64,000 nucleotides of DNA, from the NCBI GenBank assembly GCA_000310025.1, contig FN649751.1:4256241-4320240 (forward strand), read 5' to 3'. Under the pieces are notes generated by a model. It was given only the letters and a program-made list of their open reading frames with translations, had not been told where the DNA came from and did not search any database. Below, one piece after another: positions 40,441 to 50,425 of this stretch (positions within the stretch are counted from its first letter, which is position 1; every line of letters begins with the position of its first letter). The position numbers were made by a program, and so were the translations under genes. Source of the DNA: Ectocarpus siliculosus (taxonomy: Eukaryota > Sar > Phaeophyceae > Ectocarpales > Ectocarpaceae).

Positions 40441-40930
40441 GGAACATGGCCGGTTCATGGACAGTCCATGGCCGGGTCATGGCTGGATCATGGCCGGTCT
40501 ATGGCCGGTCAATAGCCGGTCCATGGCCAGCCCATGGCCGGGTCATGACCGTCCATGGCCGGGTCATGACTGGACCATGGCCGGTTCATGGCCAGTCCAT
40601 CGCCGGTCCATGGATGGGTCATGGTGAGTCCATGACCGGTTCATGGCTGCATCATGGCCGGTCCATGGCCGGTCGATTGTCGGGTCATGGACGGTCCATG
40701 GCTGGGCCATGACCGGTCGATGTACGGATCATGGCCGGTCGACGGACAGGTCATGGACGGTCCATGGACGGGTCATGGCCGGTCCATGGCTGGATCATGG
40801 CTGGTCCATAAACGATCCATGGCCTAGTCATGACCGGGTCATGGACGGTCCATGGCCAGTTCATGGACGGGTCATGGCTGGATCTTGGCCGGTCCATGGC
40901 CGATCCATAGCCGGTCCATGGCCGGTCATT
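40441..40930. repeat. 10-11-bp GGTCATGGCC / GGTCCATGGCC tandem array
   Basis: About 45 degenerate copies of the word GGTC(C)ATGGCC follow each other, often with single-base changes (GGACGGTCCATGG, GGTCATGACC). Because 30 bp is ten codons, the plus strand shows open frames with an HGR / MAGSW-like ten-residue period. These are repeat by-products, not genes. The core CCATGG is palindromic. Confidence 0.92.
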
Positions 40931-41424: not shown

Positions 41425-41760
41425 ATTTTTCCGCCGTTAAATTACCGTCGTGGTGGGCGGTCCCGGCAATCCGGCGTTTTACCCGCCGTTTTTTGGTTTT
41501 ACCGCCTCCGCCAAAAGCGTTACCGCCGGAAGCCGCGTTACCGCCTACCGCCAAAACAATTACCGCCGTATGGCGTTACCGCCGAAAAAATTCGGCCAAA
41601 ATTCTATTTTACCGCCTCCGCCTAAGTCGTTACCGCAAAAAAACGCATTACCGCCTACCGCCCTGACAATTACCGCCATGCGTCAATACCGCCGAAAACT
41701 TACCGCCATACGGCATTACCGCCGAAAACCGCCATGTAGGTACGTTACCGCCGAACGATT
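41425..41760. repeat. TTACCGCC array, copy 1
   Basis: The word TTACCGCC(GAAAA/TACCGCCAAA) is iterated about fifteen times. It opens AAATTACCGTCGTGGTGGGC, followed by GGTCCCGGCAATCCGGCG, and is directly repeated about 690 bp to the right. The complement (CGGTAA) precedes it at 41405-41440. Confidence 0.88.
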
Positions 41761-43772: not shown

Positions 43773-45250
43773 GTGGGTTCGCGGGTGGGAATTCCCGCAG
43801 AAAGAGCCATAATAAACGCCTTATCCCCGAACAAAGAAACCACTGGTGACCTCATTAGTTTTATCAATGGCATGTTTGTGCAGGTGAAACAGCGTATGGA
43901 CGACGGCATTGATGGGGGAGACGCTTTCAAGCACCTTCTTTTTCTCATCGCGTCCCACTTCAAGCGTGAAGACCGTAGCGAAGCTTTGACAACGATGAAC
44001 GCGTTTGGCGTTCTCAACGGCACTATGTTTGGAGAATTGTTTCCACAGTACCGTACTGCCGGAAGTAACATCACGCACTATTCCAATCTTTCAGCCAACG
44101 AGACTTGGATTGTCGGAATAACTCGTAATAAGATCAACGACCAGTTCTCTGTGATGATGTCTGACTGCTTTTAAGGTGCAAAGCGTACCGCTGCACCGCC
44201 GTACAGTAGCCTGGATGAGATGTGGCGAGTGCCAACAGGTTCACGACCTCTTAGGTTAAGGCTGAGAATGGGAAGCAATATGCTCCACTCTCGCTTGCCG
44301 GATTATCATGGCATTCGCACGGCGGGAGTCGTTCTCAAGGTCGTTCTGCGATACCCTCGCAGCAGTTTTGAAGCTTTCAGGGAGCCCGTAGCAAATCGAT
44401 CACGCGTGTTACAGCAGAGCCAATTCATCATGTGTTTTGTGTTAGGGAGACAGTGAATGTCGTTGTTTCCAACGGTTTCAAACGACAATTACCCCCCCTT
44501 TCGACACCCCTCCTTAGGACTAGAGCCGACCGCGCACAAGAGTTAAGTGAAATGCTGGTCGTTGTTTAAACGTGGTCACTCTGTCAAACACTGTGAACCA
44601 CCTTGCTAGTGGTGTGCTGAACCCAGATTTAGGTGCACTGCCACATGGTGATAACACGGTTCGACTGTGGCAAGAGCACTTGCGGTCCTGGAGGACTAAG
44701 CCTGCGACTACCATAGCATTGAGCACACGAAACTCAAACGCTCAACAAAACAACCGACCCCGTTGACACAGACCGACTCATTGTGTACAATACGCCGGTA
44801 ACTCTCCCAACCCGCAACAGTAGAGTTCGACGTGGCATCAACCGCCACCACATGGCCTGCTGCAATCAAGTGCACCAGCTCAACAGCACACGTTGGTAGT
44901 ATACCAGCCTAATGCCGGTACTGCTCCCGCGTCTGCCACACACGCGCAGTCGAAAGTAAGAATCAACAGTCGGCTTCCCGTAGATCGAACCCAAATGCCT
45001 GCACTCCTGGAACGTCTAGCGCTGGTAGCTGACGGCCCGACGGCGGCTTGTCATTACTCCCCGACCCGCCGATGGCAAAACTGGGGGAAGCTAGAGAGCA
45101 CTACTCCTGTTCCTACCACCGACACTTCCGCTAGAAGCGGTAGTGCTTCGGCCTCATCGGGTGCAGATGGTATAGCCCACACTCCCGATCACAGCAGCAG
45201 CTTTGGCGCTGCCGTCACTAGGAGCTTAAGGAGTGATATCTCTTGAAGGC
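43773..45250 (+). pseudogene. gag (capsid)-like remnant
   Basis: The first frame (43773-44174) is 133 codons with helical-looking segments (FVQVKQRMDDGIDGGDAFKH, FKREDRSEALTTMNAFGV). Position and composition suggest capsid, but I do not recognise a named family. Later frames (44572-44766 and 44893-45246) are Ser/Thr/Pro-rich, like the variable tail of gag proteins. No intact zinc knuckle was found. Confidence 0.45.
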
Positions 45251-45949
45251 GGCTCCCCGAGCGTAAACAATGCTCGAGTAGCTTGCACAACGCACGATCA
45301 CACCAAGTTGCCGCCCGCGAACCAGTCTAAACCATTACGTGTTGACTGCACGAATGCACGGGGCGGTTTGAGGTACGGGTACGGAAGGTCGGGATTGTCG
45401 AGCATGCCCTCTGGGTCCGCTCTGACATCCTCGTGTAGACCGTTAGGACACTTTCTTTGTCGACAATAGATGAAACGTCGCCGGGTTTAGCCACCTATAG
45501 CGATGATTTGGACATATCTACGGCGTACGGTTCATCTACCGCCTGGGGCGCCAAAGCCGATGGATCTTGAGACGGTGATAACAGTCGCTGTCCGCAAGGA
45601 AAAGCGAGTATGACCGATTGCGTGCACAGAGACACGCGTCGATTTCCCGCGGTGTGCGATTCACGAAGTACCAAAGCTGAGAGGTCCCAACCGCAACCAC
45701 GGAGGTGCTGACAACACCGTATTCGGAGGACGCTCCGATTGCACCCCTCGTTGAACAAACAACGGAAAACTCGCCACCCTCGTCCGGGGGGATCCGTCAT
45801 GTCTCCGACGTGGTGGATCCTAGCAAAAGCCCCCATCGAGTAGAGGACTCGGGGCAACAGAAACCCCCATCCTCCGCTGTAGCTGGTATTCGTATCTACC
45901 CTCCTCCTCCGACCGACGCCCGGTGTACACCGCCCGCGTTTGATCCGAG

Positions 45950-46345
45950 CAAGGAGTATCGTACGCCTGATATGGTGTTATTCATGCAAGCCCCGTCAGT
46001 TTTCTCGAGATGGCCGCCTTCCGTCTTTATTGTTGTGGATGGTGTGAATGCTATTGCGGTGAACAACTCTTCGCGGCTGCTAAGACTCGTCTATGTGGCG
46101 ACCACGATACGTTGCGGCGGACTTTGCGTGTTTCGACTCAATGAAACATGAGCGTTACGGACGCCAAGTCCAAGGGTTTGACGAAGAAGTTAGGGAGCGA
46201 GGGCGTGAAAACGTGGTGCGCGTCGCCTCCTACTACACATTTTCGCAAAATCCCGCTATGCCACAATTTTTGTGGCACCGGCGACAAACTGCTCGTCGAA
46301 GCTAGCCCACACGATGCCATTTGGGGCATTGAACATTGCGCAGAT
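45950..46345 (+). pseudogene. NADAR (YbiA-like, DUF1768) domain inside the retroelement, frameshifted
   Basis: NADAR proteins act on ADP-ribose-type N-glycosidic bonds; YbiA is the bacterial model. Four successive frames each match consecutive parts of the domain. SVFSRWPPSVFIVVDGV (about 46000-46050) fits the opening F-S-N-x-x-P-x-x-F-x-x-D-G-x. GEQLFAAAKTRLCGD (about 46055-46105) fits the E-Q-x-x-x-x-x-K block. YGRQVQGFDEEVRERGRENVV (about 46155-46220, shown in part) and FSQNPAMPQFL fit the G-R-x-V-x-x-F and F-x-Q-N-P-x-L blocks. TGDKLLVEAS with HDAIWGI (about 46272-46330) fits the closing T-G-x-x-x-L-V-E-A-S ... D-x-x-W-G-I. Order and spacing are complete, but frameshifts near 46050, 46140 and 46270 break it. 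It lies between gag and protease, so it was probably part of the gag-pol product. Confidence 0.78.
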
Positions 46346-46689
46346 GACCTGCTGCAATCCAACCCTCTTTGTGGCGAGGCTCCAATCTAGTAGACAAGTG
46401 CCTGTAGGTTGTCCGAGACCTCCTCCTAGAGCACGCGCCGACGCCGACACTTCCCCCACAAGTTTCGACCGAGGCACAACTCCAGAATACCATGCATGAG
46501 ACTAACCTTGAAACGAAAGAGCTCATTTCGACGGCAGCAGCCGAGGAGGCCGCTCCGTCGTCAGGTTGCCGCACCATATCAGAGCAAGTTCCACGTGATT
46601 ACCGCACTGAAATCCTCGCGGTTGCATCCGCTGAGTATGAGGAGGACGTGTGCCGTTGCTTGCTGAGCATGGTCCTTGCCTCGTAGGTG

Positions 46690-47342
46690 GTGTTGTTACA
46701 GTTGACGACGCTATATTTACGACCCGAGTCAAAATCCACGCTGGGCCGGCCAAATCACAAATACGGCTGTGCTGCTTTGCTGGATTCATCAACAGGAACG
46801 CTGTTGGCACCCTCAAAGCTATGGGAGAAATCTCAGAGGCTTGAATCTCGCACAGTAGCACACGTTTTTGGAGAGGTTTTGGTAAATCCGAGACTCTTCA
46901 GACGTCCGATACAGTCCGTCTGAGTGTGCAATTTTTCCACGGTGATACGCCTTCGGCTTCTCTTGCCGTTTTGGCACACATCGTCCCTGGAAACACCATG
47001 CAGTTTCCCGTCCTTTTGGGACACGATAGTTCCATGCGATATAACACTCGCACGTACCGTATGTTGCCTCCGAGTCCACTGGACAATCGTGTTGTTAGGG
47101 AATATACGCTTGCCCACCAGGACGATCCTGGTTCGGTCGCGTATGTGCCCGATTTCACAGCCCCGGCGGACCAACTCCAGCTCCGCTATGCAGGACCGAT
47201 GGCTACCTCATTGTCAGACGGCCACCAATTGATTGAGGCCAACTTGTTGCGTTCCAACGTTACACCGGGGCTAACCGGTCAACACCTTGTCGACATGTTA
47301 CCAGATGTTTCGTCGGACGAAGAAATCTTTGTCTCCGACTGA
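46690..47342 (+). pseudogene. retropepsin (protease) remnant and protease-RT linker
   Basis: One frame reads AALLDSSTGTLLAP near 46770. This is the active-site region of a retroviral-type aspartic protease, in which the expected D-S/T-G-A is altered to D-S-S-T-G. Another frame continues with VPGNTMQFPVLLGHDS, the family's C-terminal L-L-G-R-D-like block (about 47000-47028). Next comes MRYNTRTYRMLPP. The rest to 47342 is an acidic linker that leads to RT. Frameshift and active-site change make it non-functional. Confidence 0.7.
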
Positions 47343-47434
47343 CGTCAGTTTGTGCCGCTCGCGGGAGCCGCAGAACTTGAGCCAGGGGCCTTGCTCGGTA
47401 CAGACCTCTTTTTTTTTTATGACTTCCGACACGT

Positions 47435-48230
47435 GTGTTCCACATCCTCGGCGGATTTGTGGTATGTTCCCTGATGCTGTTTGAGATTGAAGTATCTCCG
47501 GATTGTCCCCCGGTAGAGTCCAAGCCGTACCGTATGCATCCTTTGGTTGGGAGGCAAGTCGATGCCATTGTGGACCAGTATCCAGCTGTTGGCCTAATTG
47601 AGCCTTCGACCTCTCCTTATTCCAACCCCATTGTGGTTATTCTGAAGAAATCTGGTGGCCTACGTACCGCGGTTAACCACCGACCGTTGAACCATATCAG
47701 CAGCCTCGGTCAACTTCGAATTCCCCGTGTCGGTGAGATTCCAACGAAACTCAACACGGGTTCGATTTCTCGCATTTCGACTTTACGATGTTCTTCCACC
47801 AGATCACTGTCCGCAAGGACATCATCGCATCCCCCATACGGCCTTTGCGACCCCCACTCGATTATTCGAATGGCTCCGCATGTCTATGGATGCTAGCCAT
47901 TCCGCCGGCCGCTTTGTCATAGTGATTACCGAAGTTATCAAAGGACTTGATGGAGTCGAGGCGTACCTCGATGATGTCGTGGTTGTTGACGAAGGCCCGC
48001 TGCAGCATGCCTGTAATATGTGCATGCTCTTCGAACGATCGAGATAATACAACCGCAAACGTTCTCCCTCGAAAGCCATCATAGGCACCACCAAGGCTGA
48101 CTCCTTGGGGCACACCATCTCTTCAATAGGTGTCCTCCCCAACGCACGTAAAGTTGCAGCCCTGACCGGTATGCCCATGCCTACGAACGTCAAGCGACTT
48201 AAAATTCACTTATGGGGGTCTGAGCTACTA
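47435..48230 (+). pseudogene. reverse transcriptase of the second Ty3/gypsy element
   Basis: KPYRMHPLVGRQVDAIVDQY and SPYSNPIVVILKKSGGLRTA (47520-47680) correspond to the first RT blocks of the copy at 18.7 kb. After a frameshift, LFEWLRMSMDASHSAGRFV and AYLDDVVVVDEGP (about 47860-47995) give the palm with Y-L-D-D. MGHTISSIGVLPNARKV and MPTNVKRLKIHL (48105-48210) are the thumb region. Numerous stops and frameshifts are present. Confidence 0.9.
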
Positions 48231-48392
48231 CCGGGGATATCTCAAAGATATGGCCAACCGTGTGAAACCCATTACACCCCCGCGCAAAACAGGTGTTCCC
48301 TTCGCTTTCACGAGTGAAATGGAAACAATTTTCGCAGCCTACCCTCTGAGCTCGCGAAACCGCCCATTCTAGTGTTTCACCATTGATACGCC

Positions 48393-48580
48393 ATGGCGGA
48401 CGGAACACGCCCTTTACGTCTTTGCTGTGATGCCAGCTCCGACGGTCTCGGCGCTGTGCTGGAGCAAGAGCAAAAGGACGGCTCGGTACGACAGATCGTT
48501 TTCATCAGCAGAGCTACATACGCTCGACGCAGAACGCAACTGGACCGCTCTCGATCTCGAAGCAGGAGGCGTCGATTTAC
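48393..48580 (+). pseudogene. RNase H N-terminal fragment, second Ty3/gypsy element
   Basis: RPLRLCCDASSDGLGAVLEQE matches the first RNase H block in the copy at 19.9-20.1 kb. After a frameshift, ERNWTALDLEAGG follows and homology stops. The continuation is found inverted from about 50410. Confidence 0.88.
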
Positions 48581-48689
48581 TGGATGAATGTCTCGAAATA
48601 ATAGCTTTTTTGAGGCCCGAATATAGGAGGGATTCTGTAGCTTTAGCAAGAAGAAAGCTGACTAGTCTAGGGGGTCGTGATGTGCATGT

Positions 48690-50425
48690 ATGCGCGAAAA
48701 AAATAAGGAACATATTGCACAGGGGGCGGAATTTGCACGAGCGTGTGTCCGTCTGGTGTCTGTGCCGCGAACAATACCCAGGATATTCGAGCCCATTTCA
48801 CCATCTGGGCACCAAATTGCAATCTCAGACTTGTGCACAACAAGTACCTTTACCCAAGCTGTCACAACTCCTTCCAGCTCAATCCTTGCTCAGTGCTTCG
48901 AGTTACGAAGGCATCTGCCTCTTGGTCGGACAACTCGTCAGTGACGAGGCATCCTTTATCTGCAAGCTCTCGAGTTTCCTCAAAAGATGGTGGATGGCTG
49001 GATGGAGGGATTTGATACTCCGTCAAACAAAACGTCCGGTAGCTTCGCAGGGCGTTCGAATAGAATGTAGCGGATGGTGGCTTCACATACCGGCTCTTTC
49101 TGCTGTTCCCGCGTCCAATCGGCACGCGTGTAGCGTTCGACGGACTCACGGAATTCTATCTCTGCAGGATTGAGGACCATGGCATCCACCGCGGCGTTCT
49201 CTTAGCAGCTGAAGCAGCTGGTTGAGACAACAAACCCAACAGAGGACCCGTAGGGGCGTCGGAAACCGTCTCCGGCGGCGCTATTGGCACCGTTGGGTCA
49301 GGTTCGACGACAGGCTCAGGCGTGGTAGCGGTTGGCAGCACTCGTGTTTGACGACGAAGCCTTCGCATCTGCAGCTGCACGCGGAGCATGTGGGGGGATC
49401 GACAATTCGGGAGCATAGTTTACATCGGGCTGAGGCTGACCGGCGGCAGCCCCGAATTTTCTGCGACGTGTACGAGTAGAGATCACTTCGGACGGATCAA
49501 GACGATGCGGTTGCACCCGAGAGGTCGAAGGCGGCGGCAATGAGTCGGCGGCATCCAGATAATATTCAGATTGGGAGCCGGCGTCGACTGTTGCTGGCAC
49601 AGGAGACACGACAGGGGGCAACCGAGAGCATACGTTGGCGGTCTGTGTGTAATGGACAGGGAACACAGCTGCAGCTTTATCGGTGTGGGGTTGCGCAGAC
49701 GGTGTGGAAACCGTGGCGGCGGCCCTATACAATGGTCTCAGCGGAGACGTAACAGGAGAAGCTGGAGACCGGCGATCCTGGCGCCACAGAACCCTGCATT
49801 GTTTGGGTTGCGGAGAGATAACCTCAGGCACAGCAAATACGGAGTGGTCGGTACTAGCCATTGGACGAGCGTCCCCAAGGTGTCGCAAAGGTCCTCGGGC
49901 ATTGACGTCAGGAAACACGCGAGCGACGAATTTTCCTTCAAGAGCATCAAGGTCATCAATCCTCATTCGAGGCCCGTGTTTGCGAAAATCCGCCAACACC
50001 ATCGGAAGTAAGGAGTAGCCCACCCAAAGCGGTGTTCTCGCTCGGGCGCGCCAGCCCACCCAAACCAACTCCAGGCCTGGTTTGTCCGGAATTGTGCGTG
50101 ACCTGTCGCTCGGATCAGATACACACCAACGTCCTCGGGGGGACGTCAAACTACTGTGACCGTTGATGTCGGCGTCAGAAGTCCCATTCGGTAGGCAAGG
50201 CAGCAGGTCAGCGCTACCGTTGGAGGCACCTAGTCGGTATTCCAACGTGTAGCTGTGGCCCTCAAGGAACCCAATCCAGCGTTGGACGGGGGGGTTGTGC
50301 TCGCTGATTACGAACTTTCCATCCCCTTACTGTCGGAATAGATGCGGAAGTGTGTGCCGCGAAGGCACTCGCGGAGACGCTTGATTGCCCAAACAACGGT
50401 CGGTCGTGTTCCCTCCTCTAGGAAA
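48690..50425 (-). mobile_element. inverted middle part of a Ty3/gypsy element (RNase H end to pre-integrase)
   Basis: Read on the minus strand from 50425, it opens TVVWAIKRLRECLRGTHFRI and YSDSKG. After a shift comes PPVQRWIGFLEGHSYTLEYR, then NGSADLLPCLP, the end of RNase H. A 300-codon Ser/Pro/Arg linker (50245-49316) follows. RYTRADWTREQQKEPVCEATI then corresponds to the pre-integrase segment DWAREQQRESECVVAM of the first element. Coding-like sequence fades at about 48690 before the integrase zinc finger. It starts exactly where the plus-strand element stops, so it may be the inverted continuation of that element. Confidence 0.85.

Follow-up and report, generated by a model that had tools for sequence, protein, structure and literature searches.

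A NADAR domain in a decayed Gypsy copy

The window analyzed here is a stretch of 64,000 nucleotides from Ectocarpus siliculosus (assembly GCA_000310025.1, contig FN649751.1, positions 4,256,241 to 4,320,240, forward strand); its positions 45939 through 46434 (+ strand) are the NADAR domain of a Ty3/Gypsy retrotransposon, broken by several frameshifts. An initial annotation, made from the letters alone, had placed a NADAR (YbiA-like) domain at 46000 through 46330, and the blocks that it quoted do follow one another on the + strand, in frames 2, 1, 0, and 1 (frame = (start − 1) mod 3). Its end point did not hold: QPSLWRGSNL follows beyond 46330, then VVRDLLLEH in the open reading frame at 46408, and such further pieces extend the domain to about 45939 through 46434. 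The Pfam search proposed as a check matched NADAR in two frame pieces, 46084 through 46305 (E = 4.9e-5, profile positions 67 through 113) and 46145 through 46390 (E = 1.2e-5, profile positions 109 through 137), both below the 35.1-bit cut-off, each piece being a fragment of the domain; among the single pieces, neither 45681 through 46151, which holds the first block, nor the short 45960 through 46118 gave a match. A profile built from three intact copies recovers three window frames that jointly cover profile positions 2 through 183.

Chance is excluded as the origin of these blocks because the DNA aligns at 84 to 87% identity to other copies of the element, members of what we term family B (84.2 to 86.7% over 45838 through 47401 for L059, L062, L040, L060, and L064); the same identity marks the window element as an old repeat copy. 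The catalytic E, K, and E are retained on reading at the E43, K50, and E125 positions, and the W89 position is R by eye (numbering follows the Phytophthora nicotianae NADAR, PMC11543638, mapped via the alignment to 8bau). The window copy itself is broken. The parts of the element are as follows:

44574 to 48572, + strand: decayed family-B Gypsy copy with the C-terminal part of Gag, the N-terminal region of Pol, NADAR, protease, reverse transcriptase (RT), and the first part of RNase H (blastn to other copies, 76 to 87%; tblastn with P0002 and P0004)
45030 to 45032, + strand: TGA, then C, at the conserved Gag/Pol UGA place (aligned with five families)
45939 to 46434, + strand: NADAR domain (blocks in frames 2, 1, 0, 1, then 0 and 1)
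46647 to 47402, + strand: protease region of retropepsin type plus the spacer that follows (82% identical to family B in amino acids; tblastn with P0002/P0004)
47465 to 48545, + strand: RT and start of RNase H (63 to 75% amino-acid identity to P0004; tblastn)
48573 to 50399, − strand: inverted segment of the same copy with the remaining RNase H and the following region (readable from 50399 down to about 49130)

The annotated position between gag and protease is correct as to the neighbors, with Gag-type sequence to the left and protease and RT to the right on the same strand; more exactly, the domain sits past the Gag stop, in Pol. The single-strand layout stands from Gag to RT and fails for the 3′ part (48573 through 50399), which is turned to the − strand. 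This inversion lies inside the element copy and has one joint at 48572/50399: blastn matches of L059, L062, L040, and L060 run on from 48572 (+) to 50399 (−), and P0004 999 through 1304 aligns by tblastn at 50421 through 49484.

Copies, families, and the Gag/Pol junction

Searching the genome for NADAR gave 150 matches scored among 230 candidates, all 150 above the cut-off, and this number is thus a lower bound. By manual count, 46 of the 150 are stop-free within an open frame of at least 1,000 codons, and 22 lie in open frames of 2,014 through 2,580 codons; two sit in implausible open frames of 10,887 and 6,365 codons, which may cross runs of N. Eighty copies were fetched, and 66 proved full-length and stop-free (14 were dropped, 11 with a stop and three partial). 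The NADAR copies form five clusters at 70% identity, and splitting A2 from A yields six groups (A, A2, B, C, D, and E); identity of the domain between clusters is 52 to 66%. Of nine open-frame pieces, eight match Pfam NADAR (E = 1e-45 to 1e-46, profile positions 1/2 through 163); the ninth, an upstream piece, is without it, as expected.

The order of the element is Gag, UGA, a Ser/Pro-rich stretch, NADAR, a short linker, protease, RT, RNase H, and integrase. The stretch between the UGA and NADAR spans about 275 to 426 codons (its richness in Ser and Pro was judged by eye), and NADAR, lying downstream of the Gag stop codon, belongs to Pol. In 18 of 35 copies examined (A, 10/14; A2, 0/2; B, 2/5; C, 1/6; D, 5/8), a single open frame runs from NADAR across protease and RT and takes in most of RNase H, so that four families have at least one such copy. 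Because many copies share one open frame with protease and RT, it is strongly supported that the element itself carries the NADAR domain, as the initial annotation had claimed. A second line of evidence comes from the Pol query P0015: all 27 elements returned are directly preceded by a NADAR match in the same orientation (matched by coordinates), and no NADAR-less sister element occurs among these best 27 of 4166 candidates, a top-scoring and hence biased set. In the window alone, where the domain is frameshifted, the arrangement could be read as a host NADAR pseudogene dropped beside a Gypsy element. We reject this artefact, which is extremely improbable given that many copies keep this order within one frame and that 27 of 27 returned elements have NADAR upstream; the host NADAR gene is moreover a different, intron-bearing locus (below).

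P0015 contains RVT_1 (329 through 487), RNase H (581 through 685), integrase H2C2 (1072 through 1129), and rve (1147 through 1245) domains, the rve match scoring 32.0 bits, just below the 32.6 cut-off. The region ahead of RT we take to be a protease from its D-T/S-G-S motif only. A PF00385 chromodomain match after integrase (E = 0.0092) is below cut-off. The family-B Gag frame has no Pfam match; a zinc knuckle, CX2CX4HX4C, is seen by eye in the Gag of families A and B. One family-B copy, 13.0 kb end to end, has a pair of long terminal repeats (LTRs; a 315-bp match, 99.05% identical) and, by eye, TG...CA ends and a CTTT repeat as target-site duplication; because its LTRs match so closely, this copy is a fairly recent insertion as judged from sequence.

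At the Gag/Pol junction, the stop codon and its following base are invariant: of 30 copies with upstream sequence, four were unreadable and the other 26 all have UGA-C (11 from B, six from C, four from A, three from E, and two from D). In 14 copies, drawn from all five families, no other in-frame stop lies between this TGA and NADAR. On the Gag side, in family representatives, the Gag frame is open up to the TGA over the stretch covered (A, 199 codons; B, 116; D, 56; E, 142); for family B a longer open frame adjoins the Gag stretch in L083, and the Gag frame of the family-C representative has stops further upstream. UGA-C is a leaky stop context. An RNA stem after the UGA, suggested by short GGCGG/CCGCC-like pairing seen by eye, was dropped, as shuffles do equally well and the alignment leaves its arms unaligned.

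Elsewhere in the window there is a second, 5′-truncated Gypsy element (18858 through 23435, + strand) that runs from RT to integrase. Its pieces have 66 to 83% amino-acid identity to P0015, and it has no NADAR or protease match within the window. Two repeat regions were also observed: an array of an 11-bp unit at 40445 through 40927 (about 44 copies, 68% matches) and, at 41497 through 42440, several tandem repeats rich in TTACCGCC.

Active site, selection, and origin

The active site is nearly invariant among the 66 copies. E43, E125, D130, and W133 are each kept in 66/66, K50 in 65/66 (K50Q in L054), and K75, R79, W89, and R93 in 63/66 each; the Y84 position is phenylalanine in 63/66. Many of these copies are near-identical, and a fair independent count is six groups; with one representative each, the catalytic residues are kept in six of six. 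The predicted model of the family-D domain (predicted local distance difference test [pLDDT] score of 81) superposes on 8bau, a NADAR with ADP-ribose, with template modeling (TM) scores of 0.75/0.73, and its only Protein Data Bank (PDB) matches at E ≤ 0.001 are 8bau and YbiA (2b3w). The likeness to the P. nicotianae NADAR (8bau, PMC11543638) thus lies in the predicted fold and in E43, K50, R79, W89, R93, E125, D130, and W133, all kept; the oomycete enzyme differs in being a stand-alone protein with 30% identity over the structural alignment and in having Y84 where the elements have F.

The comparison of nonsynonymous and synonymous substitution rates (dN and dS) that the initial annotation had called for gives dN = 0.17, dS = 1.12, and dN/dS = 0.15 between the A and A2 domains. 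Pooled within families, the corresponding ratio of proportions (pN/pS) is 0.16 in A, 0.12 in D, 0.30 in C, and 0.67 in B, where changes are few; pairs involving copies with a scrambled domain (below) give 0.51 to 0.67. Synonymous sites are mostly saturated between families, and across the six between-family pairs pN is 0.23 to 0.34 for NADAR, 0.27 to 0.37 for protease, 0.21 to 0.28 for RT, and 0.32 to 0.62 for the linker; in each pair the NADAR value is below that of protease and above that of RT. Together the copies and the model show NADAR to be a regular, conserved domain of Pol that is evidently under selection, with a predicted YbiA-type fold; that it is a retained enzyme is argued from the conserved catalytic residues and fold and the low dN/dS.

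The genome also has a stand-alone host NADAR gene, L088 (G000 C24:2124300-2127200), seen as four exon-like tblastn matches and hence intron-bearing, with a Cys/His-rich N terminus by eye. Three of the four matches have 83 to 95% identity to an annotated Ectocarpus sp. 13 protein, the fourth having 62% and overrunning the exon edge. Identities to E. fasciculatus are 70 to 96% across the four. Stand-alone brown-algal NADARs (Scytosiphon P0028, Pylaiella P0025, and Ectocarpus P0020 and P0026) have 53 to 56% identity to the family-D domain; they are without Gag or Pol, have a Cys/His-rich N terminus by eye, and are represented here by the four exon-like matches. A published Ectocarpus protein of 391 residues, Esi0017_0056 (NADAR at 132 through 291), is described as stress-inducible and as increasing stress tolerance in Arabidopsis (PMC7922944).

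The intron-bearing gene makes a host donor of the element domain possible. A tree of 52 sequences has weak deep branches, and approximately unbiased (AU) tests reject none of three constraints: a single clade of all element NADARs (p = 0.384), a clade uniting the elements with five host proteins (p = 0.439), and a grouping of elements with bacteria that excludes the six host-labeled rows (p = 0.30). Group tallies are soft, since the label “retro” was assumed for P0018, P0019, P0022, P0029, P0063, P0064, P0073, and P0121 and “bac” for unnamed database proteins. A FastTree analysis of 140 sequences had grouped elements and host proteins with a few others as a 37-leaf clade (support 0.951), which the 52-sequence tree does not uphold.

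Possible roles of the Pol domain

This kind of element is already known: Dinatale et al. 2025 (PMC12477816) published a conserved NADAR at the Pol N terminus of one Ectocarpus Gypsy lineage, with its role described as unclear, and by title we found no other report of NADAR in retrotransposons in the open-access literature searched. Their Ectocarpus sp. 7 lineage (e.g., Gypsy-12_Ec32) likewise consists of Ty3/Gypsy elements with a YbiA-family NADAR in this position; it has a chromodomain after integrase, and the PF00385 match in that place here is below cut-off. The assembly used here has 189.5 Mb in 492 contigs, versus 200.2 Mb in PMC12477816, and the families are likened by architecture. The main text of that paper contains none of the terms “readthrough,” “read-through,” “stop codon,” and “frameshift,” and in its sections covered here there is no test of selection or of the active site; horizontal transfer of NADAR is proposed there, whereas we leave the donor open. 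As far as the literature searched shows, the UGA junction, the selection analysis, the active-site counts, the damaged-domain subfamily, and the intron-bearing host gene are new.

Taken as a whole, the best explanation, which we hold tentatively and by analogy, would make the Pol NADAR an ADP-ribosyl N-glycosidic hydrolase acting on the element's own RNA or complementary DNA (cDNA). A lineage of brown-algal Ty3/Gypsy elements carries a YbiA-type NADAR as a regular Pol domain, and its Gag terminates at the in-frame UGA-C; occasional readthrough would give a Gag-Pol with NADAR in front of protease, RT, RNase H, and integrase. Made at Pol stoichiometry, the domain would enter the particle and strip ADP-ribose from guanine of the element RNA or cDNA, so that reverse transcription would not be blocked. 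We infer readthrough, packaging, substrate, and benefit alike; the substrate is suggested because known NADARs have this activity, clearing guanine-linked ADP-ribose from both DNA and RNA but leaving phosphate-end RNA marks (PMC11543638, PMC11125620, and PMC11833690). A counter-defence role, proposed in the initial annotation, is plausible. Its explicit form, a particle-packaged eraser of guanine ADP-ribosylation that implies a brown-algal enzyme ADP-ribosylating retroelement RNA or cDNA, seems to us rather unlikely.

Several observations weigh against the best explanation. In three of the 66 copies (L071, L072, and L078) the K75-R93 stretch is out of frame through compensating frameshifts. 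L072 (G000 C89:161370-162120) and L078 (G000 C4:5092650-5093400), both of family D, have an identical scrambled middle, and L072, one of the 27 elements returned by P0015, sits in an open frame of 2,346 codons; L071, of family C, is an independent-looking case. A subfamily with damaged NADAR thus seems, from these sequences, to have multiplied, either unaided or with help in trans, and the element may therefore not need the domain. The family-B pN/pS is near neutral. A search of the genome for DarT (PF14487) gave no match, its control matching in 1/14, and one for PARP returned eight weak matches of exon size, four of them above cut-off, with the control matching in 0/14. Finally, six sequences after the UGA fold no better than shuffles (z = −0.98 to +1.22); because no convincing RNA structure follows the UGA, the argument for readthrough is one from codon conservation alone. 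Of the other searches, Macro domain gave one exon-sized match, and that for ART (PF01129) is uninformative, its control having matched nowhere.

The scrambled subfamily, in at least two copies and one of them in a long open frame, and the family-B ratio also speak for a domain co-opted to bind ADP-ribose or nucleic acid, or carried along as a dispensable passenger, in which catalysis is irrelevant; the retained ligand-contact residues and predicted fold would suit this as well. Both catalytic glutamates in 66/66 copies and ratios of 0.12 to 0.16 in A, D, and A-A2 argue otherwise, and we consider this reading improbable.

An enzyme could also act elsewhere. Metabolite cleaning or signal scavenging, with soluble ADP-ribose or riboflavin-type N-glycosides as substrates and not element nucleic acid, draws on statements that riboflavin intermediates are NADAR substrates and on the argument that phage NADARs prefer soluble ADP-ribose derivatives (PMC9503650 and PMC7922944), and the Pol NADARs do have the YbiA-type glutamate E125. 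A diffusible-metabolite role poorly explains a NADAR inside Pol in every family examined, and for the NADARs in polyproteins of eukaryotic RNA viruses, macromolecules have been argued to be the targets (PMC9503650); a metabolite role appears doubtful. Those nidovirus and other RNA-virus enzymes are likewise embedded in a polymerase polyprotein, with 18 to 26% structural-alignment identity to the element model in the named hits among 50 listed. Processing of the RNA intermediate of transposition, for instance of ADP-ribose products of RNA repair, is suggested in PMC12477816, where NADAR is reported from ORF1 of oyster Tx1 long interspersed nuclear elements (LINEs) as well; this suggestion, too, has a small share of our confidence. 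DarTG1, in which DarT1 is paired with a NADAR antitoxin, has the NADAR hydrolase domain in common with the elements; it differs in its DarT, with no match in this genome, and in the aspartate of DarT1-linked NADARs versus the YbiA-type glutamate here.

Catalytic conservation and dN/dS make the element NADAR worth assaying; the UGA junction predicts the amount of NADAR made, and the damaged-NADAR subfamily offers a natural comparison. Nucleic-acid ADP-ribosylation is best known from bacterial toxin systems. If the Pol NADAR acts on element RNA or cDNA, mobile elements of a complex multicellular eukaryote would be under pressure from this modification, and a host enzyme that writes it would, if real, be a new kind of genome defence.
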